DNA of 64,000 bases from an uncultured Lachnospiraceae bacterium. Its GTDB lineage: Bacteria > Bacillota > Clostridia > Lachnospirales > Lachnospiraceae. Shown in pieces: positions 51,230-63,926 of the stretch. The stretch lies in contig CACYTU010000006.1 in assembly GCA_902777355.1 (NCBI GenBank), forward strand, positions 18,962-82,961, written 5' to 3'. The translations under genes and the position numbers were made by a program. The stretch's first letter is position 1; every line of letters starts with the position of its first letter. Under the pieces are notes generated by a model. That model had not been told where the DNA came from. It ran no database searches and was given only the letters and a program-made list of their open reading frames with translations.

Positions 51230-51395
51230 CTTCTGTCACAAAAGCGCTGCAAGATCCGGGAATTGGAATTACCGTACTCCCGTCTTCTATCACAAGAGCG
51301 CTGCAAGATCCGGGAAATTGAATCACCGCTCCTCCCGGTCTTCTGTCACAAGAGCGCTGCCAAATCCGGGAACATTGCCACGCTTCTCTTCAGGA
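51230..51395. repeat. 54-56-bp tandem repeat containing the hydF stop codon
   Basis: Copies start at 51230, 51284 and 51340 (CTTCTGTCACA or CTTCTATCACA, then AGCGCTGC and CCGGGAA). The third copy encodes the last residues of HydF (FPDLAALL) and its TGA. The first two repeat this 3' end, with the stop and the ribosome-unlike flank, in the spacer. Confidence 0.93.
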
Positions 51396-52572
51396 TTCCG
51401 TTCATGTATGCGATGGCAGTTCCGTAATTGGTCACCGGAACATTCTGCCGTACGGCGCGTCCGATCCTGCTCTGCATCTCACGTTCATTCAGCATGCATC
51501 CGCCGCAGTGGATGACCAAAGCGTAAGGCGTGAGATCCTCCGGAAACCCCGTTCCTGAAGAAGTCTCGATCGTGATGTCCTTCCCGGTCTTTGTATGCAG
51601 CCAACGGGGAATCTTCACTGTCCCTATGTCGTCACACTGACGGTGGTGGGTGCAGCCCTCCGAGATCAGGACGCGGTCTCCGTCCTTCAGATGTTCGATC
51701 TGCGCCGCGCCTTCCACTGCCGTCTTCAAAAACCCCTTGTAGCGCGCCATCAATATGGAAAAAGATGTGAGCGGAATGCTCTCCGGCACGTCTTTCTGCA
51801 CCCGGGCGAAGGCCTGGCTGTCGGTGATGACAATGGCAGGAGGTCTGCGCAGACTCTCCAGAGTCGCGGTCACTCCCTCCGTCTGTGTGCAGATCGATGT
51901 ACACCCGGCATCCAGTATATCCCTGATCACCTGCTGTTGAGGCAGGATCAGCCTGCCTTTGGGGGCAGCCTTGTCAATGGGAATGACCAGAATGACCTGG
52001 TCTCCCGCTGTGAGAAGATCCGATACCAGCCTGGGTTCCCGGCCCTGCTGTGCTTTCCATGCCCGATAAATCTCCCCGATTGTCTCCTTGATCTCCGTGA
52101 TTCCCTCTCCGGTCAGGGCACTGGCCCGGACAAAAGCCGGTCCAGAAGATTTGACCGCTTCGGTCGACAGAGGGGCCGACAGATCCGATTTGTTCCAGAC
52201 GATCACATAGGGGATTTTTTTCTCCTGAAACAGGCCCAAAAGTTCGCGGTCGCAGCCGCACATTCCCCTGCTTCCGTCTACGACCAGAACTGCAATATCT
52301 GTCTGAGCCAGAATCTTTCTGGTCCTCTGCACACGCAGCTCACCCAGCATGCCCTCGTCATCAAAGCCGGGGGTATCTATGATCACGACAGGTCCCAGGG
52401 GCAGGAGCTCCATCGCTTTTTTTACAGGGTCGGTTGTCGTTCCTTCCACTTGTGAGACAACTGCCAGGTCCTGTCCCGTGACAGCGTTTACAACGCTGGA
52501 CTTTCCGGCGTTGCGGCGCCCGAAAAAGCCTATATGTATCCGTTCTCCCGAAGGAGTGTCATTTAAACTCAT
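51346..52572 (-). CDS. hydF: [FeFe]-hydrogenase H-cluster maturation GTPase HydF
   Basis: HydF is the scaffold on which the di-iron subcluster of [FeFe]-hydrogenase is assembled before transfer. The 408-residue protein has the GTPase domain (IGFFGRRNAGKSSVVNAVTGQD, IDTPGFDDEG, VWNKSDL). After a dimerisation region comes the Fe-S domain, with CTHHRQC and HCGGCML, the CxH...HCxxC cluster ligands. The start at 52572 has GGAG; a longer in-frame reading is only repeat DNA. HydE and HydG are not in this window. The 3' end is part of a tandem repeat. It indicates an H2-metabolising anaerobe. Confidence 0.95.
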   Translation of the reverse strand: MSLNDTPSGERIHIGFFGRRNAGKSSVVNAVTGQDLAVVSQVEGTTTDPVKKAMELLPLGPVVIIDTPGFDDEGMLGELRVQRTRKILAQTDIAVLVVDGSRGMCGCDRELLGLFQEKKIPYVIVWNKSDLSAPLSTEAVKSSGPAFVRASALTGEGITEIKETIGEIYRAWKAQQGREPRLVSDLLTAGDQVILVIPIDKAAPKGRLILPQQQVIRDILDAGCTSICTQTEGVTATLESLRRPPAIVITDSQAFARVQKDVPESIPLTSFSILMARYKGFLKTAVEGAAQIEHLKDGDRVLISEGCTHHRQCDDIGTVKIPRWLHTKTGKDITIETSSGTGFPEDLTPYALVIHCGGCMLNEREMQSRIGRAVRQNVPVTNYGTAIAYMNGILKRSVAMFPDLAALL

Positions 52573-52600
52573 CTTTATTCTCCACAAAAACCAAATCGAG

Positions 52601-52663
52601 ATGGATATATGTTCATCTATCCAGACAAACCGCGCCGGGACGGATATATGTTTATCTATCCAG
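52601..52663. repeat. 39-bp tandem duplication upstream of hydF
   Basis: GGATATATGTTCATCTATCC (52603 on) recurs at 52642 with one change, spaced 39 bp apart, in the spacer between the FAH-family gene and hydF. Confidence 0.85.
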
Positions 52664-52733
52664 GCATGTCTTACCTGGGCGAAAAAAAAATCAATATTTC
52701 CCTTCATCCCATACCGATTCTGTTGTAATTTCA

Positions 52734-53693
52734 TTATTCCGTAATCACATTTGTCAGCGCACCGATTCCCTCAATCACACAGCTGACCGTGTCGCCGGGC
52801 TTGAGGAATCTGGGCGGGTCAAAGCCCATTCCGACTCCCTTGGGAGTGCCTGTGGAAATAATAGTCCCTGCCCGGAGTGTCATTCCGGCGCTGAGCTCGG
52901 AAATAATGCGCTCCAGACCGAAAATAAGCATATCTGTCGTGCTGTTCTGACGTATCTCTCCATTAACAATGCTGGCGATCCTGAGCTTGGGCGGCCATGC
53001 AAACTCATCCGCCGTCACGATACAGGGACCCATAGGGGTGAAGCCATCCAGGCTCTTGCCCAGGTACCACTGTGTGTGTCTGGTCTGGATGTTGCGGGCA
53101 CTGATGTCATTGAGGATCGTATATCCGAATATGCAGTCCTTCACCTCTTCCGGAGCGATCCCCTTTATGTCTTTCCCGATAATCACTGCAAGCTCGGCCT
53201 CATAATCCAGGGAATCAACCAGGTCCGTATAGGCGGGAACCGGCTCCCCGTCTCCGGGTGACCGGTATACACGCTTGGAAAAATACACGGGATAGCGGTC
53301 TTTTGATACAAAGGACTCACTGGAATAGGCCGCAGCTTCCTCCGCATGCTCAGTGTAATTAAGTCCCAGGCAGATCACATCCTGCAGAGGACAGGGAATC
53401 GGGGAGAGCAGCCTGCAGTCCTTGCCCACCACCAGTCCGGCTTCCTCTTCGGACTCATTGAATCTCTGGGCGATTCCGCTCAGATCCTGCATAATCTCCG
53501 GAGTGGCCTCGGCGATCATTGTATTCATATCCGGAAAAGAATATGCCGTATCTGCCAGCGGCAGAATCTTTTTGCCGTCAGACGAAATGATTCCGACTTC
53601 CTCAAGAGCCCGCTTAACATACATCCTGATTATCTCACTGGGATTGTATTCAGGTTCGTCTTCAAAATTTCTCTTGAATGTAACTAATCTCAT
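52734..53693 (-). CDS. Fumarylacetoacetate hydrolase (FAH) superfamily protein
   Basis: A 319-residue protein with the FAH fold: ICLGLNYTEHAEEA, YPVYFSKRVYRSPGDGEPV, the metal-binding LDYEAELAVIIGKD (two glutamates), GYTILNDISARNIQ and GTIISTGTPKGVGMG. Members include acylpyruvases, oxaloacetate decarboxylases and 2-hydroxyhepta-diene-dioate isomerases. The MRLVTF start fits the family, although no strong ribosome site adjoins it. It lies upstream of hydF on the same strand. A role in cleaving or isomerising ring-derived diketo acids is possible but not shown. Confidence 0.87.
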   Translation of the reverse strand: MRLVTFKRNFEDEPEYNPSEIIRMYVKRALEEVGIISSDGKKILPLADTAYSFPDMNTMIAEATPEIMQDLSGIAQRFNESEEEAGLVVGKDCRLLSPIPCPLQDVICLGLNYTEHAEEAAAYSSESFVSKDRYPVYFSKRVYRSPGDGEPVPAYTDLVDSLDYEAELAVIIGKDIKGIAPEEVKDCIFGYTILNDISARNIQTRHTQWYLGKSLDGFTPMGPCIVTADEFAWPPKLRIASIVNGEIRQNSTTDMLIFGLERIISELSAGMTLRAGTIISTGTPKGVGMGFDPPRFLKPGDTVSCVIEGIGALTNVITE

Positions 53694-54177: not shown

Positions 54178-57100
54178 TCATTTTTTTGTGGAATCTGATC
54201 CATTATCTTTGTCCTGATCTTTCTTTTTATTGTTCTTCTTGTAGCGCTGAATCAGGACAACTGCGGCGCCGGCTGCACACAGTGTCAGCACCCACAGGAA
54301 AATGTTGGTTGTATCTCCGGTCTTGGCGGAAGTCGTACCTTTCTGCGAAGTTCCGGACGATGTCTTGGAGTTCGAGTTGGATCCCGTTGCGTTCTTGATC
54401 ACCAGTGTGGACTTGGGATTATCGCCGTCCTCAAATCCGTAGGTCAGCGTATGTGTTCCGACCGCGAGCTTGCTCAGAAAATCCTTCTTGAATGTGATGA
54501 CGACGCTGCCGGATTTCGCCTTGTAGTAATCCTTCTTCAGGACCTTTCCGTCTACCAGGATTCCCTGGAAATGGCTGAAGGCAGTCTTATTTTCGGTCTC
54601 TCTTATAATCTTGACTTCCAGGCTCTTGCCGGAACCCTTGGTCCAGGAAAGACTTGCGCCTTTTTCGACCTTATAGGTACCCTTGGTCAGTTTGGGGATG
54701 ACCGCGGTTTCAACTTTCTTACAACGCTCGCAGGTGTGCTCCTTTTTGCCTTCTGCAGTCAGGGTAGGTCTTGTGATTATCACCCATTCACCGAATTTGT
54801 GGCCAAGAGCTTTACCTGTATCCACAACCTTTGTCTGTTTTTCAAAAACACTGTTTTTGAATACTGCCGTGTAAGTGGTCTGAGCCTTTTCCGTACAGGT
54901 GGCTTCTTTCGTCTTCTTTGAGGTGGTCTTGACAGTCTCTGTCAGCTTATGCGATTTGTAGTTCTTACAAACTACCTGGGCTTTAACAGTGCTGTTATCC
55001 TTCGACCATGTATATGTAGGCTCACCCCATTCATGTTTAGTTGATTCAAAGCGGACGCCTGTCACAGGTGCAGCAGTTTCACCCTTCTTATAAACAGTTT
55101 CGACGTAAATATACTTGGAACCATCCTTGATGCTTCCGGTGCTGATCTCATGAGCAGAGGGGAATAAAATATCGGCCGTTTCAAATGTGATCTTCTTGGG
55201 AGTATAGTTTTCCTGATAACCCTGTTCTTTATTCCCGCTCTCTCCGGTAAGGGCTGCAAAAGCAATTCCGTCTGCCACTTTACACTGCACTACATATTTC
55301 TTTTCTTTAGAGAGGTTGATCTTGGAACTGCCGCAGACCACACCATAGGCCTTACTTGTTCCGTCAGCGGGTCCCGCCGTAATATTCATATTTGAATCTT
55401 TCAGGCTGAGTTCACCGGCAGCTTTTATCCCGTAAACAGCACAGGGAGCATTTACTTTTACGTCACTGTCCCCTGAAATAACTATATCTCCTGCAGTTTC
55501 TATGCCGCTGAAGGTTTTTACAGTGCTTTCATCCCCGGGGTTGGCGATTACAGTAATAACCGCGCCATCAATAGAAATCTTTTTTCCTGCATAGAGGACT
55601 GAATTCTTAACAGGCGGTTTATAAACATACGACTGCAAGGTGGCTTTTGCACCAGACTCCATCTTGAATTTGTCATGAGCATAGACACCGGTCCCATAAA
55701 CATCAGTTGTCAGGTTGGATCCCTTGCTCAAATTCAGATTTTCGCATTCGATTCCGTTAAGAATATCGTCAGTCTTTTCGTGATTAATTGTAATTGTGGT
55801 ACTGATGTCAAGATTGCCATCAGAGACAATGGCAGTTTTCCCACTTTTAGTGGTCAGCGTTCCTTTTCCTTTGATCTTTATTTCAGACTTCTTCTTTGAG
55901 TCTCCGGAAATGAATCGAAGAGCGCTTGCCTTCTCATCTCTTACAGATTCAAGATTTGTAAGTGTGATTTTATTCGTGCCTACAAGATTGATCGTATATT
56001 CTTTTTCACCTGTACCGGAAAGATAAATGCCTGCTGCAGGGGAATATGCATGATCATAGACAGCATTTGTGTTGATCACATAAACATTGTTGAAAGTAAT
56101 TATTTTTTTATCAAAATCAAACTCAATAAAGTTTCGATCATGCTTACCTACAGCATTTTTCCCATCAGAATCAGTATCGTTAAATGCGTACCCAATGTCA
56201 TTTATATACAGAGATGAGGACGCAGCATTCTTTGAAAGGTCCAGAGCATAATTGCCAACATAAAGAACTGGTTTGTTCTTGTCTTTGTTAGAGATTTTCA
56301 GGGTTGCCTTTTCCGACTTTACGGTTTTGCCGCCTTCATTTATCTCGCAGAAAAATTTCTGCCCATCATCATCCTTTGTCGTGGAAGGAATGCTCAGAGT
56401 AGCTGTTGTGGCAGACAAACCATCCAGTTTGACATCCTTACCCGTGGATTTATCATGAATATACCACTGGTAAGTAGCGGTTTCCGAGGGCGTTACGCTG
56501 AACTCAGCACCTGCCGGATACTCTACAGTCTGATCCTGAGGCTGAGACATAGCTGTCAAATCAGGAGTAACAGTCAGATCCGCCGAAGCTGAGTCTTCAG
56601 GCTCCCTCCCTTCATAAGATACCCTGCAGAAATAACTGCCTTCGTCATCCTTCTTTACAGATTCAATGACAAATTTAGGAGTTTTCGCGGTATCATTGCC
56701 GGTGATTGCAACTGCTTTTGCTGCTTCTTCTCCGTCCCCGTTTTCTTCGTTTTCTTCGTCTTCTTCCTCTTCTCCAACGTCGGAGACCTTATACCACTGG
56801 TATGTCGCCTTGGAGGGATCTATACCTTCTATATTGTCATTCAGCTCTACTTTGAATTCAGCCTTCTCAGACTCTTTTACCTCAACATCCTCCGGCTGGG
56901 TCTTTATAATGGAATCTTCGGCTCCCTCATCTGCAGCTTCCTCAGAGACATTCTCATCATCGCCTTCTTCCGCGATTTCCTGCGTGGTCGTGCCTGCGCT
57001 GCCTGTATTTTCCGAAGGGGCACTGTTCCCGTCGTCAGCCTGTGCCGCCTGTTCATCGGTTTTGGCAGCATTTGCGCCTTCTTCCTGTCCGGCAGCTCCC

Positions 57101-57657
57101 GCTGCTTCTTCAGTTGCCTCGGTCTCACCGCTTCCGGCATCTTCTGTCTGCTGCGGAGTCTCGATTACTTCGGGCTCCTCAGGAACTTCCGGCTCTTCAG
57201 GTTCCTGGGGAATCTGCTCCCATCCCGCATAAACCGTCATATTGGAAGTGACCAAGCCGTCCCAGGGAGTCTGGCATTTTTTGTCAGTAAACCAGCCCAG
57301 GAACTCATAACCATCGTCCATGGGGGTATCTGCCAGGCCTTCAGCAGGATATCCTTCTTCGACATCTTCAATATAGGACTCCCCGTGGCCGTTCAGGTCA
57401 TATGTCACTGTATAAACAACCGCCGGCTGCTCAATATCCCCCGAGCCATCCGATTCTCCCGAATAATCGTCTTCAGAATAATCCTCTTCTGAATAATCAT
57501 CAGCTCCGGTATACATGGCATCTTCATATGTTTCCGTGTCTCCCGACCCTGCATTGTCGAAAAAATCGGTTCCGAAAGCAGTTAAAGGAGAGGATACAGC
57601 CAGTGTTGTACTGAGAACCATTCCAGCGATTAAAGTCACGATGCGATTTCTCTTCAT
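54178..57657 (-). CDS. Large secreted surface protein with InlB B-type repeat, Ig-like regions and KTGD anchor
   Basis: A 1159-residue exported protein. It opens with a signal peptide (IVTLIAGMVLSTTLAVSSPLTAFG). A Listeria-Bacteroides InlB B-repeat follows near residues 85-145 (VTYDLNGHGESYIEDVEEGYP, YEFLGWFTDKKCQTPWDG), then a Glu/Ala linker, two Ig-like segments (IIKTQPEDVEVKESEKAEF; LTAMSQPQDQTVEYPAGAEF), and a long beta-helix-like region resembling carbohydrate-active or adhesin domains. The EATCTEKAQTTYTAVF/EKKEHTCERCKKVE module is common in Lachnospiraceae surface proteins. The C-terminus has SAKTGDTTNIFLWVLTLCAAG plus a basic tail, a sortase-like KTGD anchor without a clear LP. It is probably a host- or fibre-facing adhesin; the ligand is unknown. 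Confidence 0.82.
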   Translation of the reverse strand: MKRNRIVTLIAGMVLSTTLAVSSPLTAFGTDFFDNAGSGDTETYEDAMYTGADDYSEEDYSEDDYSGESDGSGDIEQPAVVYTVTYDLNGHGESYIEDVEEGYPAEGLADTPMDDGYEFLGWFTDKKCQTPWDGLVTSNMTVYAGWEQIPQEPEEPEVPEEPEVIETPQQTEDAGSGETEATEEAAGAAGQEEGANAAKTDEQAAQADDGNSAPSENTGSAGTTTQEIAEEGDDENVSEEAADEGAEDSIIKTQPEDVEVKESEKAEFKVELNDNIEGIDPSKATYQWYKVSDVGEEEEDEENEENGDGEEAAKAVAITGNDTAKTPKFVIESVKKDDEGSYFCRVSYEGREPEDSASADLTVTPDLTAMSQPQDQTVEYPAGAEFSVTPSETATYQWYIHDKSTGKDVKLDGLSATTATLSIPSTTKDDDGQKFFCEINEGGKTVKSEKATLKISNKDKNKPVLYVGNYALDLSKNAASSSLYINDIGYAFNDTDSDGKNAVGKHDRNFIEFDFDKKIITFNNVYVINTNAVYDHAYSPAAGIYLSGTGEKEYTINLVGTNKITLTNLESVRDEKASALRFISGDSKKKSEIKIKGKGTLTTKSGKTAIVSDGNLDISTTITINHEKTDDILNGIECENLNLSKGSNLTTDVYGTGVYAHDKFKMESGAKATLQSYVYKPPVKNSVLYAGKKISIDGAVITVIANPGDESTVKTFSGIETAGDIVISGDSDVKVNAPCAVYGIKAAGELSLKDSNMNITAGPADGTSKAYGVVCGSSKINLSKEKKYVVQCKVADGIAFAALTGESGNKEQGYQENYTPKKITFETADILFPSAHEISTGSIKDGSKYIYVETVYKKGETAAPVTGVRFESTKHEWGEPTYTWSKDNSTVKAQVVCKNYKSHKLTETVKTTSKKTKEATCTEKAQTTYTAVFKNSVFEKQTKVVDTGKALGHKFGEWVIITRPTLTAEGKKEHTCERCKKVETAVIPKLTKGTYKVEKGASLSWTKGSGKSLEVKIIRETENKTAFSHFQGILVDGKVLKKDYYKAKSGSVVITFKKDFLSKLAVGTHTLTYGFEDGDNPKSTLVIKNATGSNSNSKTSSGTSQKGTTSAKTGDTTNIFLWVLTLCAAGAAVVLIQRYKKNNKKKDQDKDNGSDSTKK

Positions 57658-57750: not shown

Positions 57751-58086
57751 CGTCATATTGTGATAGTAGTCATAAATCACAAATCCGTAATAAATCTGCT
57801 CTGACCCGCCTTACATGCTGCCGTATTTTTCCGCAGGCATGCGAAAAAACACAGCCGTGACCGACGGTGTCTGAAAAATTTCCCCTGTTCAATTATTTTT
57901 AACCAATCTGTCCGACCAGGGGTCAATCTGACAGACCTCTGTATGAACAATCATGATTATACCAGACAAAAAGTGTATTTGTCATTTTTTATAAAAAAGA
58001 TTCACTAAATTTTTGCATTATAATAAGTACGTTTCATAAAACAGGTCACTGTAAAAGTTATTGCCTGTAGCATGTCTTAAAATAAG

Positions 58087-58131
58087 AGGGTGTGAAGATA
58101 ACACGGATTTGCTTCTTCACACCCTTTTTTG
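58087..58131. terminator. Hairpin terminator downstream of the nitrogenase-like unit
   Basis: AGGGTGTGAAG (58087-58097) pairs with CTTCACACCCT (58115-58125), followed by a T run on the plus strand. The minus strand has only CTCTTATTTT, so a bidirectional stop is plausible. No gene lies in 57658-58223. Confidence 0.75.
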
Positions 58132-58153
58132 TTATTTATTGTCCCTGTCTGTT

Positions 58154-58275
58154 CATTTCGGGCACAATTCTTCTAATCATTTTCTCTGTCCCTTCCGGGC
58201 AGGATTGTTTCAGCATTATTCTTTCAATTCCGGGCAGGATTTTTTTCACCATTGTCCCTGTCCCTTCCGGATAAA
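58154..58275. repeat. 35-39-bp tandem repeat over the 3' end of the second component-1-like gene
   Basis: TTCCGGGCAGGATT-type units begin at 58193, 58228 and 58265, and a decayed one near 58154. The stop (58224-58226) lies between the second and third, so the gene's 3' end and its downstream flank share the unit. Confidence 0.8.
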
Positions 58276-59822
58276 AATGATTGGAGCCGGGAAACCACGC
58301 TTTCATCCATGAGATCAGGTATTTCCCGAAGGAATATCCTGCCGGAAAAAGCCAGGTGGGGCAGGCGGATGATCGTATATCCCTGGGGAATGGCGTCCTC
58401 ATAGCAGGGATCAGCGATGACCCCGATTTCACTTTCTGCGGCATGCAGGACGGAAGCATCGCCTTCGCTTTGGCCGGTAATATTCCGGAGCCGGGCATTC
58501 AGTTCCTCTTCACCAGCGGGAGCAAAGTCATTTCCACCCAGGAAAAGGCTGCTGCCTGCCGGTTCGCCTCTGCCCTCTTCCGTCATGCCGAAAACGTGAG
58601 TGGGCACTCCTGTCAGAGTCTGCATGGAAGCCGCCAGCGATGTCATCACAACAGGCTCCCCAATCAGGCAGACAGGTAGTTTTTTTTCATCAGGCCCGTC
58701 AGCGGCAGCGGCCTTTCTCTCCCGGAAAGGAAACTGATTTTCTCCTGTTTCTGCCGCTGTTCGCACAGCTTCAAAATAAAGCTCTTCTGTCCCGCAGGCA
58801 GGTATTCCTGCCACGAAAGGAATCCCGAATCGTTCCTTCATGTACTCAGCTGCCGGAAGTCCGGTGGACGACAAAAGCAGGTTCACGTCGGCCGAAGCGC
58901 TGCGGCATATATCAGACAGCTGCTGATTGTACCTGTTGTCATTACTGTGCCCGGAAAAGCCATTCTCAGGAGTATCAGCTGAAGATTCTGCTCCACCTTT
59001 TGGGGCGTGGACAAGTTCTTCTGCCTCAGTCCGGTCCTCAGTCAAATTTCTGTCTGTACTAATGGGTGAAATGGATGAAGAACTGTCTCTTCCGTCTGAG
59101 ACCATGTCTTGGTCCATAGCCCAGTTGGAGACGATTTCTATTCCTGCGGACGCAAGCTTTTTGCGCAGGCTCTGTTCTGTTGAGGGAGCGTAAAAGTCAA
59201 GAGGAGTCATGCCAAGGAGGTTGACCCTGATCTTTTTTCTGCCTGCACGGTTCTCCTCTTTAGAAAAGTCCTTTTCAACTTTTTCCCTACAGTCTTTTCC
59301 GTTTTTTTCCTTATGATCATTCTCGGCTTTTTCCTTACAGACTTTCTCGCCCTTTTCTTTTTCCGAATCCACGGGGACACCTGCAAACCGCTTCGCGATC
59401 TGCAAAAAAGCAAGTCCCGCTCCCCGGGTATAGTCGTGCATTCCGTTGGTGCTGATATAAAACGATGGAATTCCAGTCTCTTTCTCGATAATACGGGTGA
59501 TGGCATCAAAGTCCATTCCGACTATATAGGGAATGGGGGAATTGGCGATGGCAATAAAAGAAGGCGAATAGATGCGGGCCGCCTCCGTGATATCCCGGAT
59601 CAGCTTCTCGTCATTTCCCAGCATGGCGTCCGTATCATTGAGACCTGACAGGAAGATCAGGCTGTCATGGTCGTACCACCTGATCTCATCGTGAGTATTG
59701 TAGGTGGAGTTGCAGCCCGAGGGATCGTGCATGACAACCATGCCGCCAAGTTCAAAAAGAGCGCTGCAGACGCCCGATACGTCTCCGGTGTAAACCGGTA
59801 TTTTCCTGAAAACCTGTCGCAT
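58224..59822 (-). CDS. Nitrogenase component-1-like protein (subunit B)
   Basis: A 532-residue protein of the NifD/NifK/BchNB superfamily. YTGDVSGVCSALFELGGMVV followed by DPSGCNSTYN gives C19 and C37 in the positions of the first two P-cluster ligands. The expected third cysteine is replaced in IANSPIPYIVG. LLSSTGLPAAEYMKERFGIPFVAG and VCLIGEPVVMTSLAASMQTL fit the later Rossmann-like domains. An insert of about 50 Lys/Glu-rich residues (150-200) and another Ser-rich insert near 260-310 are unusual. The partner is the adjacent 60025 gene; the electron donor would be the NifH-like protein. The substrate is unknown. GGAGA precedes the ATG. Confidence 0.82.
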   Translation of the reverse strand: MRQVFRKIPVYTGDVSGVCSALFELGGMVVMHDPSGCNSTYNTHDEIRWYDHDSLIFLSGLNDTDAMLGNDEKLIRDITEAARIYSPSFIAIANSPIPYIVGMDFDAITRIIEKETGIPSFYISTNGMHDYTRGAGLAFLQIAKRFAGVPVDSEKEKGEKVCKEKAENDHKEKNGKDCREKVEKDFSKEENRAGRKKIRVNLLGMTPLDFYAPSTEQSLRKKLASAGIEIVSNWAMDQDMVSDGRDSSSSISPISTDRNLTEDRTEAEELVHAPKGGAESSADTPENGFSGHSNDNRYNQQLSDICRSASADVNLLLSSTGLPAAEYMKERFGIPFVAGIPACGTEELYFEAVRTAAETGENQFPFRERKAAAADGPDEKKLPVCLIGEPVVMTSLAASMQTLTGVPTHVFGMTEEGRGEPAGSSLFLGGNDFAPAGEEELNARLRNITGQSEGDASVLHAAESEIGVIADPCYEDAIPQGYTIIRLPHLAFSGRIFLREIPDLMDESVVSRLQSFLSGRDRDNGEKNPARN

Positions 59823-59914
59823 TCTCTTCTCCTGTTACAATCATCAGAAGCATTGTGGCGGAGTATTGCCGCTTTCGCTTAATCTGACTGCTGCCATCTT
59901 TCAGCATGTCTTTG

Positions 59915-60032
59915 CATCTGCTGAGACGCGCCGCAAAAAACCTTTTATTATTCCTGCCGGGTGCTCTTCTTCTCATCTCCAGAGGCACGCCGCAAAAATA
60001 TCATCTGTTTTTCCTGCCAGGTGCTCACAGCA
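59915..60032. repeat. 59-bp tandem duplication over the 3' end of the first component-1-like gene
   Basis: CATCTGCTGAGACGCGCCGC (59915 on) matches CATCTCCAGAGGCACGCCGC (59974 on), and both continue to CCTGCCRGGTGCTC. The stop of the 60025 gene lies in the second unit. Confidence 0.85.
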
Positions 60033-61371
60033 CGCAGGCACAGCCCAGTCCCTTTCTGGGAACGATTGACCGCGTATCTTTTTCGTGAAGGAAGGCATCT
60101 TCCATGAGTCCGGCCAGTTTCTCTACCCCGGAAAAGCCCCACATACCGCCATATTCCACAAGATTCACAAAGCGGGCTGTTCCTCCAAACCAGGCAGCCT
60201 TGGGTCCGATGGCCAGCATATTACCTTCGTTTTCCTTTCCGTGAAGGACTCTCATTTTAGGATGAACCGTAGAGTTAAGAATCAGTTCCGGGTGATGTGA
60301 TCTCAGCCAGTCAAAGTCCTTTTTTTCTTCAGGGGAAATCGCATCAATGTAGATGCGGGTCACTCGAAAGCCATGCTCAAGCAGCAGTCTTGTCAGCCCC
60401 AGGGTCCTGGGATTAGCTATATAGTCAACGGTGATCTCTGTATCTCCGATCAGCTGCAGGGCATGGTCAAGAGCATTTTCGGCCGCCTTCTGTCCGGCCT
60501 GCATCAAGTCTGTCCCTTCTTTTGAGGAAAGCGCCTTCCGCAGTTCTCCGATTTCCTCGCGGATTTCCCCGGCGCCAACAGAAGGGGGAAGGTATAGAAA
60601 AGGCCTGCCCAGTCTTTTGGCCAGCTGTTTGATTCCGTGGACTCCGCTCGGACTCCTGGTAATGAAAAGAGAGGCCGCTCCGATCCTCAGATAATCGTCA
60701 TAGGTCCTGCACTGCTGCAGGCTGAGATAAGTAAACCCGGCTTCGGTGATCTCTTTGGCAAGGTCGCTGTCGGGATCCACAGGCTGGTTATCTCCCAGGA
60801 TACAGACCAGGCCCGGATCGACCGGAAGGGGACGAACTGGCCTGAACATGGATTCCTTGAGCTTCTGTTCCGGAGTGAGGCCGGTTTTCTGCATGACAGG
60901 ATCCATCCAGCAGCGCATAAAATCGATATCCGGAAAACGCTCCTCCAGATTCCTGTAGACCCATGCGGCATCGGTTCCCACAAAATGATGGAGACAGACC
61001 AGGAAGACGGCAACTGCCCTTGGACGGTAAGGAAGCCGGTTGATCGCATCAGTCACTCCCTCGACCGTGATGTCCTCAAGACTCCCCTCATAAAGGTCTT
61101 CCTCTTCCAACAGTACACATGAAAAGCGGTCCGCAGCGTCCATTTCAGCAGCTGTCAGGACGACGCCCCGCATGCAGTTGTCAGAGCATACATAGATCTG
61201 ATGACAGTCGGGGACCAGCATTCCAATATGTACGATATTCCAGGTTTCGTGGACAGGCGCGTTAAATTCCAGCACCTGGGCAAAGGGGGCCGGAAAGGCC
61301 GCCTCCGAAATCCTGAGGACAGCACCTTCTTCGCTTACAGACCGCAGCCCTCCGGGACGTATTTTTTTCAT
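60025..61371 (-). CDS. Nitrogenase component-1-like protein (subunit A)
   Basis: A 448-residue protein, highly diverged from NifD/K but of the same superfamily. Candidate cluster cysteines are C56, C62 and C66 in VPDCHQIYVCSDNCMRG and C126 in VFLVCLHHFVGTD, where nitrogenases have their third P-cluster ligand. Later blocks YLPPSVGAGEIREEIGELRKAL and LTRLLLEHGFRVTRIYID fit the C-terminal domains. The FeMo-cofactor His/Cys pair is not recognisable. The start at 61371 has GGAG. It lies between the NifH-like gene and subunit B, consistent with an alpha/beta partner pair. Confidence 0.8.
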   Translation of the reverse strand: MKKIRPGGLRSVSEEGAVLRISEAAFPAPFAQVLEFNAPVHETWNIVHIGMLVPDCHQIYVCSDNCMRGVVLTAAEMDAADRFSCVLLEEEDLYEGSLEDITVEGVTDAINRLPYRPRAVAVFLVCLHHFVGTDAAWVYRNLEERFPDIDFMRCWMDPVMQKTGLTPEQKLKESMFRPVRPLPVDPGLVCILGDNQPVDPDSDLAKEITEAGFTYLSLQQCRTYDDYLRIGAASLFITRSPSGVHGIKQLAKRLGRPFLYLPPSVGAGEIREEIGELRKALSSKEGTDLMQAGQKAAENALDHALQLIGDTEITVDYIANPRTLGLTRLLLEHGFRVTRIYIDAISPEEKKDFDWLRSHHPELILNSTVHPKMRVLHGKENEGNMLAIGPKAAWFGGTARFVNLVEYGGMWGFSGVEKLAGLMEDAFLHEKDTRSIVPRKGLGCACVL

Positions 61372-61560
61372 TATCAATCTCCATTCATAGATCAACACCG
61401 GACAGAATCTTTTCCTGTGCAAAGAAAAATTCCTCTGCATCCACAGGTATTCTGCTTCACTGCCCGGCAGGCAGCGAGCTGCTGATCTGCTGTCGTTCCC
61501 GCAGATACCCTGTTTGTATCTGTCATTCCTGAACCGGGGTATGCCTGCAGCCGGTCTGGC

Positions 61561-62403
61561 TCACTTCCCGGCAGGGGCCATTGCCTGACCTGCTATTACT
61601 TCCGCAAGCATCCTGTATTCTTCCGCCATTTCCGAATCGGGGAATGCCTGAAGGACGCTCTGCCCCCGCTCTTCAGCCTCAAGGACGGTGGCGCTTCTCG
61701 AAAGACATCCTGTCAGTTCGGTGCCGAGTTCCGCAGCAAGTGCACGGACCTTGTTCTCCTCATCGGGCACATCTCTGCGGTTGAGGATGAGGCCGCCAAG
61801 CCTGGCGTACCCTCTTCCCTGAAAGTGCTCCAGGGCAAGTCCAATATTGGCAGCTGCATAGAGGGACATGGTCTCTCCGGAAGTAAGGATATAAACATAA
61901 TCGGCGTATCCTGCCCGCATGGGCATGGCAAATCCTCCGCAGACGACATCGCCAAGGACATCGAAAAGCACTATGTCGGGGCGGTATTTTTCATAGATTC
62001 CCAGTTCTTCCACTTTTTCAATGGCTGTGATCACTGCTCTTCCGGCACAGCCCTGGCCGGGCAGAGGGCCTCCGGCTTCCGCGCACAGCACCCCTGAAAA
62101 GCCTGTCCTGATCACCTGCTCAGGGCCGAAAGGCTTCCTGGCACGAACATAGTCCATGATCGTCTGAGGAGATCCGGAGCGGACTCTCTTCATGATCAGC
62201 TGAACCTCTCCGGCACTGCTGCTTCCATCTTCCATGTTCTGAAAAAAAGAATTCTCCCGGCACAGGAGCCTTGTGGAGTCAGCCTTTGGATCACAGCCCA
62301 CCTGCAGAACTCTGAGTCCCTTCTGCGCAAATACAACTGCAAGATTGGAAACCGTCGTGGATTTGCCGATCCCGCCTTTTCCGTAAAATGCTATTTTAAC
62401 CAT
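61561..62403 (-). CDS. NifH-like iron protein (nitrogenase reductase family ATPase)
   Basis: A 280-residue ATPase that should be a homodimer with one bridging [4Fe-4S] cluster. The P-loop [19 protein letters not shown], switch region [14 protein letters not shown], and both cluster ligands C119 ([12 protein letters not shown]) and C155 ([14 protein letters not shown]) are intact. It is therefore a true NifH/BchL/CfbC-type reductase rather than a MinD-like protein. Its downstream neighbours are two component-1-like genes. No nifB, nifEN or molybdate genes are in the window, so nitrogen fixation is unlikely. GGAGG precedes the ATG. Confidence 0.9.
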
Positions 62404-62477: not shown

Positions 62478-62726
62478 TTATTTGATCCTGGAGTATGCCG
62501 TTTTGGTGCTGACTCCCGCCAGACGGCCAATTTTTCCGGAGAGGGCCGTGATCTCATTCTCCGGGGCATCGACGGCCACGCTTATGATATTGATTCCCTT
62601 TTCCCGATAGGGAATTCCCATTCTCCCGATTATATACTGGCGGTAAGAATGCAGGATGCGGTTGATATCCTCAGGGGATTCCTGATCTTCCACAATGATT
62701 GAAATGACTGCAACTCGTGTTTCCAT
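62478..62726 (-). CDS. TM1266-type iron-only hydrogenase system regulator
   Basis: An 82-residue ACT/NikR-C-like domain protein: [56 protein letters not shown], ending [14 protein letters not shown]. This matches the family often encoded with HydE/F/G and named for Thermotoga TM1266. It is predicted to be regulatory, with unproven ligand. The start at 62726 has a GGTGA site. It lies between HypE and the NifH-like gene on one strand, tying the nitrogenase-like group to hydrogenase-type metabolism. Confidence 0.85.
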
Positions 62727-62811
62727 AAATGTCACCATTTGAGATTCTTATCTTACATTGCCGGGTTATAGGCATACCCGGCAGGCTCATATTCAGAAAG
62801 CCGCGCGGACT

Positions 62812-62864
62812 GCTTTTCCAGCATTTCAGCTTTTTTCGGCATTTCAGCTTTTTTCGGCATTTCA
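62812..62864. repeat. 17-18-bp tandem repeat starting at the hypE stop codon
   Basis: On the minus strand TGAAATGCCGAAAAAAGC is repeated, the first TGA being the hypE stop (62862-62864). Three units start at 62864, 62846 and 62828 reading leftwards, the last one slightly changed. Confidence 0.92.
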
Positions 62865-63866
62865 GCAGATTCTGGGAAGAAGCTCGTTTCCTGGCTGGGG
62901 CAGGATGGTCTGAGCACCAATCTCGGTGTTGAGGACGACGCGTCCGGGATGGTCTGAAGTAACTCTGCCGATACAGACAGCACCCTCCGTGTGGGGGCTT
63001 CTTCTCAGCGCTTCCAGGACCGCATCCCTGTCCTTCTCCGGGGCGATGATCACAAGTCGGCCTTCGCATGCCAGATAAAGAGGTTCGAGGCCCAGCATAC
63101 CGCACACTCCCCTTACGCCGGGATCTACAGGGATTTTTTCAGCTTCCAGGGAGAAGCCGACATTGCTCTGACCGGCGATTTCATAGAGGACTGTTCCCAC
63201 GCCTCCTCTTGTGGCATCGCGGATCACGTGGATACCGGGGGCGTCGGTCAGGGCGTTCTGCACAGCTGCCCACAGGGGGGCGCAGTCACTTGTGACATCT
63301 GCCTCAATCCCGTATTCATCTCTGGCCAGCAGGATGGTACAGCCGTGTCTGCCGACATCTCCTGTGACGATCACGCAGTCGCCGGGCTTAGCCAGGGCTC
63401 CGCCTGTGCATACACCATCCATGACGCGTCCGACCGCAGTCGTGGTGATAAAGACTCCGTCCACCTGACCCTTGCCGGCCACTTTCGTATCGCCCGCAAC
63501 AATGCAGACTCCTGCCTCAGCCGCGGTCTTTTCCATCGCAGCGGCGATCTCTTCGAGCCTGTCCATGGGAAAGCCCTCTTCGATCACAAAAGCACAGGTC
63601 ATATAGAGAGGCTGAGCGCCCATGCAGGCCAGGTCATTGACTGTACCGCAGATAGAAAGCTTGCCGATATTTCCGCCCGGAAAAAAGGCAGGGGAGACGA
63701 TAAAACCGTCAGTTGACATGGCCAGCCTGCCCGCCGGAATATCCAGGAGGGCTGCGTCATCGGGTGTGAAGTGAGGATTTTCAAAATGCGCGCGAAATAC
63801 TTTTTCTATCAGTTCCGAAGTCTGTTTTCCCCCTGCGCCGTGGGCCAGGGTAACTGTTTCCTGCAT
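62862..63866 (-). CDS. hypE: Hydrogenase expression/formation protein HypE
   Basis: HypE dehydrates a carbamoyl group carried on its C-terminal cysteine to a thiocyanate, donating cyanide to the iron of [NiFe]-hydrogenase. The 334-residue protein has LAHGAGGKQTSELIEKVF, DDAALLDIPAGRLAMSTDGF, the ATP-binding KLSICGTVNDLACMGAQP and VAGDTKVAGKG. It ends exactly in PRIC, the conserved C-terminal cysteine. The second ATG is preferred, with AGGAAGGA nine bases upstream. Rest of the hyp set (hypABCDF) is not in this window. It is first in a run with the TM1266-type regulator and the nitrogenase-like genes. Confidence 0.92.
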   Translation of the reverse strand: MQETVTLAHGAGGKQTSELIEKVFRAHFENPHFTPDDAALLDIPAGRLAMSTDGFIVSPAFFPGGNIGKLSICGTVNDLACMGAQPLYMTCAFVIEEGFPMDRLEEIAAAMEKTAAEAGVCIVAGDTKVAGKGQVDGVFITTTAVGRVMDGVCTGGALAKPGDCVIVTGDVGRHGCTILLARDEYGIEADVTSDCAPLWAAVQNALTDAPGIHVIRDATRGGVGTVLYEIAGQSNVGFSLEAEKIPVDPGVRGVCGMLGLEPLYLACEGRLVIIAPEKDRDAVLEALRRSPHTEGAVCIGRVTSDHPGRVVLNTEIGAQTILPQPGNELLPRIC

Positions 63867-63926
63867 ATCGTTCATTCCTTCCTGAGCTTATCTGTCCTAT
63901 TAAATGATGTCGGGGTCAAAAGGTGG

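Follow-up and report, generated by a model that had tools for sequence, protein, structure and literature searches.

HydG is established as the enzyme that makes CO and CN from tyrosine, and for the Hyp family it is established that HypE and HypF form cyanide from carbamoyl phosphate and that HypC and HypD act as the scaffold (PMC6802093, PMC9431212; these and, unless marked otherwise, the other papers are cited for their accessible parts). Other tasks are known within the nitrogenase superfamily. Methylthio-alkane reductase is a related nitrogenase-like function (PMC12552129), and a nitrogenase-like enzyme that reduces isethionate is known, reportedly also from intestinal bacteria (PMC11423573). 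In this study, we analysed 64,000 nucleotides of DNA (the window) from an uncultured Lachnospiraceae bacterium (assembly GCA_902777355.1, contig CACYTU010000006.1, positions 18,962 to 82,961), in which a NifH-like protein and two nitrogenase component-1-like proteins, here called NflH2, NflD2 and NflK2 for nitrogenase-like (NFL), are encoded next to the gene of HypE. From sequence comparisons we believed that the NFL/Hyp cluster to which these genes belong likely replaces HydG in the maturation of the H-cluster, because HydG and NflD2 rarely occur together across genomes, because of the gene order and the presence of HydE and HydF in the operon, because the Hyp genes mostly lack a [NiFe] client, and because of the HydF tree.

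The features of the window that are needed for this comparison are as follows.

62862..63875, minus strand: HypE, cyanide-forming maturation protein (TIGR02124, 400 bits, cut-off 251.6)
62478..62738, minus strand: TM1266-family putative regulator of the [FeFe]-hydrogenase system, 86 amino acids (TIGR03959, 114.6 bits, cut-off 60.8)
61561..62403, minus strand: NflH2, NifH-like ATP-dependent reductase, 280 amino acids (PF00142, Fer4_NifH, 267.8 bits, E 1.4e-79)
60025..61440, minus strand: NflD2, nitrogenase component-1-like, 471 amino acids as listed (PF00148, Oxidored_nitro, 51.9 bits, cut-off 28.6)
58224..59822, minus strand: NflK2, nitrogenase component-1-like, 532 amino acids (PF00148, Oxidored_nitro, 75.8 bits)
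58078..58134, minus strand: inverted repeat just past NflK2 (21-nucleotide arms, 86% complementary, spacing 15 nucleotides), which may be a transcription terminator
51346..52734, minus strand: HydF, H-cluster maturation GTPase (TIGR03918, 561 bits, cut-off 325.6)

The initial annotation had recognised a NifH-like protein and two diverged component-1 proteins at 58224-62403, and this was borne out by Pfam matches and fold matches far beyond chance; the cluster cysteines that it named in NflH2, Cys119 and Cys155, agreed with our residue check. Its boundary cut the unit, with TM1266 and HypE directly upstream on the same strand. The order of transcription is HypE, TM1266, NflH2, NflD2, NflK2 and the inverted repeat, with spacings of 123, 74, 120 and 202 nucleotides between the five genes in that order, and NflD2 probably starts near codon 24, at about 61371. 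The distance from NflK2 to HydF downstream is 5.5 kb here, and the two are close together in many relatives. Because the end of the window is also the end of its contig (C6, 82,961 bases), only part of the cluster is visible. The statement that no cofactor genes are present was not supported: genes for metal ligands and for the hydrogenase cofactor are the neighbours, namely HypE and TM1266 within the window, HypF, HypC and HypD on another contig, and HydE and HydF in relatives. On the first two, and then on the others, the idea of a lone reductase of unknown substrate was dropped.

The locus stands apart from the characterised nitrogenase types, as had been proposed, when the clade is judged by the cut-offs of the NCBIfam nitrogenase-type equivalogs alone. 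The scores of NflH2 were 278.0 bits for nifH (cut-off 394), 277.6 for CfbC (402), 173 for BchL (345) and 146 for BchX (331), and those of NflK2 were 39.7 for NifE (505), 20 for nifD (654), 15 for nifK (427), 25 for BchB (490) and 11 for BchN (420). The CfbD match had 26 bits against a cut-off of 268, and NflD2 matched no NCBIfam nitrogenase-type model at E<=1. By these cut-offs the proteins belong neither to nitrogenase (NifHDK), nor to dark-operative protochlorophyllide oxidoreductase (DPOR) and chlorophyllide oxidoreductase (COR) (BchLNB, BchXYZ), nor to CfbCD, and a nitrogen-fixation, chlorophyll or F430 role was rejected on the same scores; the latter two had been called improbable from the start. 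CfbCD also has a single D subunit, whereas the window locus encodes two different component-1 proteins. NflD2 and NflK2 resemble NifEN, NifDK and DPOR (BchNB) in fold and in distant sequence similarity, but they are far under the cut-offs of these families, and their neighbours are hydrogenase genes.

The Mar and Isr sets are accompanied by a radical-SAM (S-adenosylmethionine) B partner (PMC11423573). MarHDK and IsrHDK are likewise nitrogenase-like HDK sets, and the Mar chain 9fmg_A was among the fold matches of NflD2, whereas in the NFL core operon HydE is the only radical-SAM gene recognised (some open reading frames are unlabelled), and the NflK2 profile gave 42 bits to the Mar chain versus 80 to NifE. 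In a plasmid search, NifH, BchL and a member of a further group, NFL3, were among the matches listed (60 of 264), and no Cfb, Mar or Isr protein was among them. Type I mlp gene clusters and the C. indolis nif annotation were also considered and set aside: the accessible parts of PMC10418091 and PMC4149025 mention nitrogenase-like sets in such bacteria and say nothing of a link to Hyp or Hyd genes.

Occurrence of HydG and NflD2 across genomes

The family set comprised 250 genomes, each from a different genus. NflD2 was counted as present at >=35% identity, which gave 22 genomes, and a further 10 genomes at 23-32% identity were counted separately. HydA and HydE were each found in 22 of the 22 NflD2 genomes and HydF in 21 (the exception is G175), whereas HydG passed its curated cut-off in one (G224). 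Among the 138 family genomes with HydF, HydG was present in 1 of 21 with NflD2 versus 107 of 117 without it (Fisher p 9.6e-16, uncorrected for kinship). HydG hosts and NFL hosts otherwise share the same background of HydA, HydE and HydF in this set. In the window genome (G000, 84% complete), HydE is on contig C106, HydF is in the window and HydA is on contigs C38 and C3, while the best HydG match had an E value of 7e-51 and stayed under the cut-off. Two HydG-less hosts, G191 and G232, are single-contig genomes that are 99-100% complete, so missing contigs are not the general cause of HydG absence.

Loci were collected by a scan with an NflD2 alignment over one genome per species, which gave at least 596 candidate stretches; 552 of them encode a relative, and the best 80 of the 552 were taken, a choice that over-represents proteins closely related to that of the window. 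Judged by their titles, the loci belong to Lachnospiraceae, Oscillospiraceae, Clostridium, Pseudoramibacter and Actinomycetota (Olsenella, Atopobiaceae). The genomes of 50 of these loci, chosen as named isolates and diverse metagenome-assembled genomes (MAGs), formed a second set (16 isolates by title and 34 others, mostly MAGs), in which HydG, HydF, HypD and the [NiFe] large subunit were tested; L078, L096, L121 and L130 were kept out, having been tested already, and the two sets may share a few species. In the second set, which includes Actinomycetota, HydG was found in 3 of 50 genomes, HydF in 47, HypD in 44 and the [NiFe] large subunit in 8. HydG was undetected, with HydF kept and the NFL operon present, in many organisms, including Coprococcus comes, Roseburia faecis, Blautia luti, Eubacterium ramulus, Clostridium carboxidivorans, Olsenella species and rumen lineages; the closed chromosome of C. 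carboxidivorans P7 (G260) has HydF and HypD and no HydG at E 1e-60. With both sets pooled, HydG occurred in 1 of 60 NflD2 hosts with HypD versus 3 of 12 without HypD, and strict replacement is therefore a property of the type with hyp genes, to which the window belongs.

A quick gene tree of HydF, which is no species tree, was calculated for all 138 HydF-positive family genomes. The NFL label changed 14 times on this tree and the HydG label 20 times, and the well-supported branches alone still required at least four changes for the group with NFL and without HydG. In 14 independent pairs that share no branch and differ in NFL, the median count for HydG was 11 opposite, 0 the same and 3 undecided (greedy pairing on all branches of the best tree; sign test, p 0.001). 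A pairs test with hand-chosen HydG-positive rows had been dropped as biased, and the test was rerun on all 138 genomes. The exchange of NFL and HydG has likely happened repeatedly, a conclusion from these sequences that rests partly on weak branches. Because NFL-associated and HydG-associated HydF do not form two separate clades, the tree suggests that both systems hand HydF a precursor of the same kind.

Operon order and the Hyp genes

The window genome also has a second nitrogenase-like set, placed at the end of contig C57 and made up of NflH1, a fused NflD1-K1 of 942 amino acids, HypF, HypC and HypD. All four matches to PF00148 in this 84%-complete genome fall within the two nitrogenase-like loci. 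The Hyp proteins of contig C57 passed their cut-offs (HypD 364 bits against 192.8, HypF 692 against 466.1, HypC 57.4 against 48), as HypE did in the window. The relatives L037-L041, on unbroken contigs, carry the order NflH1-NflD1-NflK1-HypF-HypC-HypD-HypE-TM1266-NflH2-NflD2-NflK2, and no other gene, HypA and HypB included, was found in them from NflH1 to NflK2. Because of this order, the gap between the two contig ends of the window genome probably falls between HypD and HypE. Both ends bear a similar short stretch, inverted relative to each other, which is perhaps a repeat at which the assembly broke.

Across the relatives, the general operon reads NflH1-D1-K1-HypF-C-D-E-(TM1266)-(NflH2)-NflD2-NflK2-(HydF-HydE), with genes labelled and loci typed by BLAST against a few references. 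A hyp gene was present in 63 of the 80 loci, an ABC (ATP-binding cassette) importer without hyp in 8, and 9 were untyped. In all 63 hyp loci the recognised hyp and NFL genes share the strand of NflD2. NFL1 genes were found in 52 of the 63 hyp loci and in none of the 8 importer loci, and TM1266 in 45 of the 63. NflH2 was labelled in 36 of the hyp loci, and since NflH1 alone was labelled in 21, one NifH may serve both NFL sets. HydF was labelled in 48 of the 80 loci, and either HydF or HydE in 54; HydG was inside none of the 80. In L162, HydE and HydF, which both pass their NCBIfam cut-offs, even sit between NflD1 and NflK1.

The initial annotation had left these proteins an undescribed reduction of a metabolite, unconnected to hydrogenase. 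We regard this as highly improbable. Scores under the cut-offs of the characterised families are in its favour, as is the precedent of the nitrogenase-like isethionate reductase (PMC11423573), and the recurrent recognised neighbours are nevertheless Hyp, Hyd and TM1266 genes (farther flanking open reading frames are mostly unlabelled). Because HypE, TM1266, HypFCD, HydE and HydF surround the genes and their occurrence tracks the absence of HydG, the data point to the assembly of a cofactor and not to the reduction of a metabolite.

By the NCBIfam cut-offs, the cluster encodes genuine HypCDEF members, and their catalytic cysteines are intact: HypE ends in PRIC in the window, and its C-terminal cysteine is kept in 40 of the 40 HypE sequences aligned from the cluster, the CGT, CPVC and C-terminal cysteines of HypD in 56 of 56, and the CxxC zinc-finger cysteines of HypF in 52 of 52. 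Unlike the HypCDEF of [NiFe]-hydrogenase, these Hyp proteins are encoded together with nitrogenase-like genes in one operon, and most of the genomes concerned have no [NiFe] large subunit. In the family set, HypD was found in 46 genomes and the [NiFe] subunit (PF00374) in 31. HypD without this subunit occurred in 17 genomes, of which 14 carry NflD2 and one (G167) has an NFL1-Hyp contig, so that G043 and G051 remain. PF00374 was absent from the window genome and from 14 of the 16 family genomes with both HypD and NflD2. Ten NflD2 hosts do have the [NiFe] subunit (G069, G230, G256, G260, G261, G264, G273, G275, G287 and G294). In nine of them (not G264), a second HypD is on the contig of the [NiFe] subunit and the other copy is at the NFL locus, which looks like a division of labour between two Hyp sets.

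These results bear on a puzzle in acetogens. In the accessible part of PMC9431212, hydG was not found in five of eight acetogenic Clostridium species, for which an atypical HydG or scavenged diatomics were raised as possibilities; HypCDEF without HypAB was reported in five acetogens, with no straightforward explanation offered in that part, and HypC, D and E were reported to be duplicated in C. carboxidivorans. Of the two HypD copies in that species, one is at 2215876 in the NFL operon (L113) and the other, at 1482411, adjoins PF00374 at 1485678. The duplicate Hyp sets are thus one set at the NFL operon and one by the [NiFe] subunit.

Proposed pathway, counter-cases and rival explanations

The H-cluster needs more CO and fewer CN ligands than the Fe(CN)2CO unit made by the Hyp proteins, and nitrogenases, as well as their Fe proteins, are able to form CO from CO2. 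For these two reasons, NFL was proposed as a CO supplier or as a rebuilder of the iron unit. Cyanide would come from carbamoyl phosphate through HypF and HypE, as it does when [NiFe]-hydrogenase is matured, and HypC and HypD would hold the iron that receives it. The NflH ATPases would push low-potential electrons into the clusters of NflDK, which would provide the CO ligand or ligands, most simply by CO2 reduction, and/or would turn the Fe(CN)2CO unit of the Hyp type into an Fe(CO)x(CN) synthon richer in CO. HydE and HydF would accept this NFL product where they otherwise use that of HydG, and the [2Fe] unit would then go into HydA through HydF. The system is predicted to fill the same step as HydG (CO and CN on iron for HydE/HydF) with no homology to it, and tyrosine and SAM would be swapped for carbamoyl phosphate, ATP and reductase-driven chemistry. 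The CO2-to-CO step by NflDK is a tentative suggestion. It is similarly doubtful whether the nitrogenase-like pair and HypCDEF form a complete second H-cluster pathway, in which CN comes from carbamoyl phosphate and CO from CO2 or bicarbonate and which has been exchanged repeatedly with HydG.

In the second cluster type, NFL2 occurs without Hyp, often with HydE and HydF beside it, and 9 of the 12 HypD-less hosts have no HydG. In L052, for example, the order is TM1266, FecCD permease, ABC ATPase with a TM1266 domain, HydE, NflH2-D2-K2, substrate-binding protein and HydF. NFL2 would be the common step of both types, with NFL1 and Hyp or a BtuCDF-like importer as alternative suppliers; that the importer may take up a ready-made iron- or cyanide-containing precursor is a guess. 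An ABC ATPase bearing a C-terminal TM1266 domain was seen at 13214-14353 of L052 (Pfam) and in L053 and L055 (BLAST only). This domain arrangement hints that TM1266 is a ligand-sensing domain of the NFL system.

Several observations weigh against the replacement of HydG by the NFL/Hyp cluster, which gene content and gene order otherwise support strongly. HydG and NflD2 occur together in G224, Oliverpabstia intestinalis (G255), C. drakei (G264) and a MAG (G299); of these four, all but C. drakei are without HypD. The importer type thus shows the looser link with HydG, and where its cyanide would come from is not evident either. No HydF was found in the NflD2 hosts G175, G258, G274 and G292. Conversely, 10 of the 138 HydF-positive genomes have neither HydG nor a strong NflD2. 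Among these ten, G047 lacks HydA and has a fragment of HydG, weaker nitrogenase-like homologues occur in G048, G167 and G245, and HydE is missing from G114 and G122; G142 and G181 (94 and 97% complete), as well as G011 and G128 (86 and 69% complete), have HydA, HydE and HydF and neither HydG nor NFL. On the well-supported branches of the HydF tree, only 4 pairs are left, 3.6 of them opposite and 0 the same (p 0.125), and the window genome itself is only 84% complete. The loci L150-L152, around HydE and HydF of G142 and G181, contain TM1266 and no nitrogenase-like gene, and these genomes perhaps represent a further HydG-free solution or missing sequence.

The accessible part of PMC9431212 further suggests that an atypical radical-SAM HydG may exist, and it names a HydG-like candidate in acetogens, C. 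autoethanogenum included. The HypFCDE genes of that species are CLAU_RS01730-01745 in the same paper, and transposon essentiality data have been published for it (PMC9004356); fdhA, whose product forms a complex with the Hyt [FeFe]-hydrogenase, is required there on CO. An unrecognised radical-SAM enzyme could then act as HydG, with NFL/Hyp serving for iron supply, redox activation or a modified [2Fe] ligand. G142 and G181 also fit this explanation, since they have some third solution unless genes are missing from them. We consider it quite unlikely. A match to the HydG model TIGR03955 under its cut-off was found in 14 of the 22 NflD2 hosts, and 7 of the 22 had no match at E<=1e-30; the 12 of the 14 matches that have coordinates lie within model positions 10-389 of 470 and have no C-terminal domain, which is what one expects of ThiH. 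Such an enzyme would also give the Hyp cyanide machinery no role.

A different function of the NFL enzymes was considered from the group NFL3, in which NifH and two component-1 proteins occur with a substrate-binding protein, a FecCD-type permease and an ABC ATPase. NFL3 has 25-29% identity to NflD2; it was first counted with the NflD2 family and then set apart among the weak homologues. It was found at L145, L156, L157, L158 and L164 (G048, G072, G143, G059 and G004), with no Hyd or Hyp gene recognised nearby, and also on plasmid pTS1 of the spirochaete Treponema saccharophilum (L225). The occurrence of NFL3 with its importer in the HydG-positive genomes G072 and G143 is another point against our reading, because it indicates that a nitrogenase-like set plus an importer can do something else. 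A metabolite role may thus exist in the wider group, and the NFL enzymes could carry a new cofactor, for example an Fe(CN)2CO cluster from HypCDEF, and reduce a small substrate, with only an indirect link to the loss of HydG. This would suit HypCDEF without [NiFe]-hydrogenase next to two nitrogenase-like enzymes, but it leaves HydE and HydF in the operon, the TM1266 gene and the exchange with HydG unexplained. We believed it to be unlikely, though the least improbable of the three rivals.

We are aware of no system in which nitrogenase homologues make a cofactor for hydrogenase. A search of open-access full text, outside which bioRxiv and most subscription journals lie, gave no match that ties nitrogenase-like proteins to HydG or Hyp, and nothing on NFL genes was found in PMC11370222. 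Judged by titles and the beginnings of abstracts, PMC9431212 was the one paper found there on genomes without HydG. Each part of the NFL/Hyp cluster alone belongs to a known superfamily. The cluster is common in gut and rumen bacteria and suggests a second, unrecognised route to the metal centre of [FeFe]-hydrogenase, which bears on the origin of CO in hydrogenase metal centres. If the replacement of HydG is true, it would account for the hydG puzzle in industrial acetogens (PMC9431212), and it would give HypCDEF a second client and the nitrogenase superfamily a new job in a new H-cluster route, the first in which a nitrogenase homologue builds the cofactor of a hydrogenase.

Protein features and neighbouring genes

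The P-loop of NflH2, GKGGIGKST, starts at residue 8, and its two cluster cysteines (140 and 176 in the numbering of the reference row) are kept in 40 of 40 aligned NflH2. In NflD2, Cys89 and Cys149 are invariant in an alignment of 51 rows, and Cys85 and the C-terminal Cys467 are conserved in at least 90%. Cys37 of NflK2 is invariant in 52 aligned rows and lies inside a conserved HDPSGCNSTYNTHDE-type motif. In DPOR, a comparable iron-sulfur cluster bridges the subunit interface. The cysteine pattern suggests such a bridging cluster at the NflD2/NflK2 interface, held by three cysteines of one subunit and a fourth of its partner. The NFL1 proteins have cysteine sets of their own: a CC pair, a CxxC and one more in D1, and two in K1.

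The AlphaFold models had a mean predicted local distance difference test score of 87.9 for NflD2 and 79.1 for NflK2. Over most of its length, the NflD2 model matched chains of nitrogenase, NifEN, DPOR and Mar (best E 4.8e-14), and the NflK2 model matched chains of nitrogenase, NifEN and DPOR, BchB and NifE among them (best E 6.1e-15). The identity to solved chains over the fold was 10-16%, with no one family prominent for either model, and among solved structures NifE gave the best sequence match to the profile of either subunit. In NflK2, residues from about 155 to 200 and from 240 to 295 are low-complexity charged inserts that are missing from most aligned relatives, and a 24-nucleotide tandem repeat lies in its gene at 59267-59338.

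A promoter scan gave 6 hits versus 5.0 expected, which is no excess over chance. The nickel-pincer genes larB and larC (and larE) were seen near nitrogenase-like clusters in L006 (12386-14727), L051 (1-2067) and L109. Large open reading frames in the operon by NflH2/NflD2, of 607, 931 and 609 amino acids in L065 (Sarcina sp. DSM 11001) and of 965 amino acids in L103, are perhaps mobile elements. Between NflK2 and HydF, the window encodes a fumarylacetoacetate hydrolase-like protein and, at 54178-57657, a surface protein of 1159 amino acids with immunoglobulin-like domains and a weak sortase-signal match; in L055, an open reading frame related to this surface protein is also near HydF.

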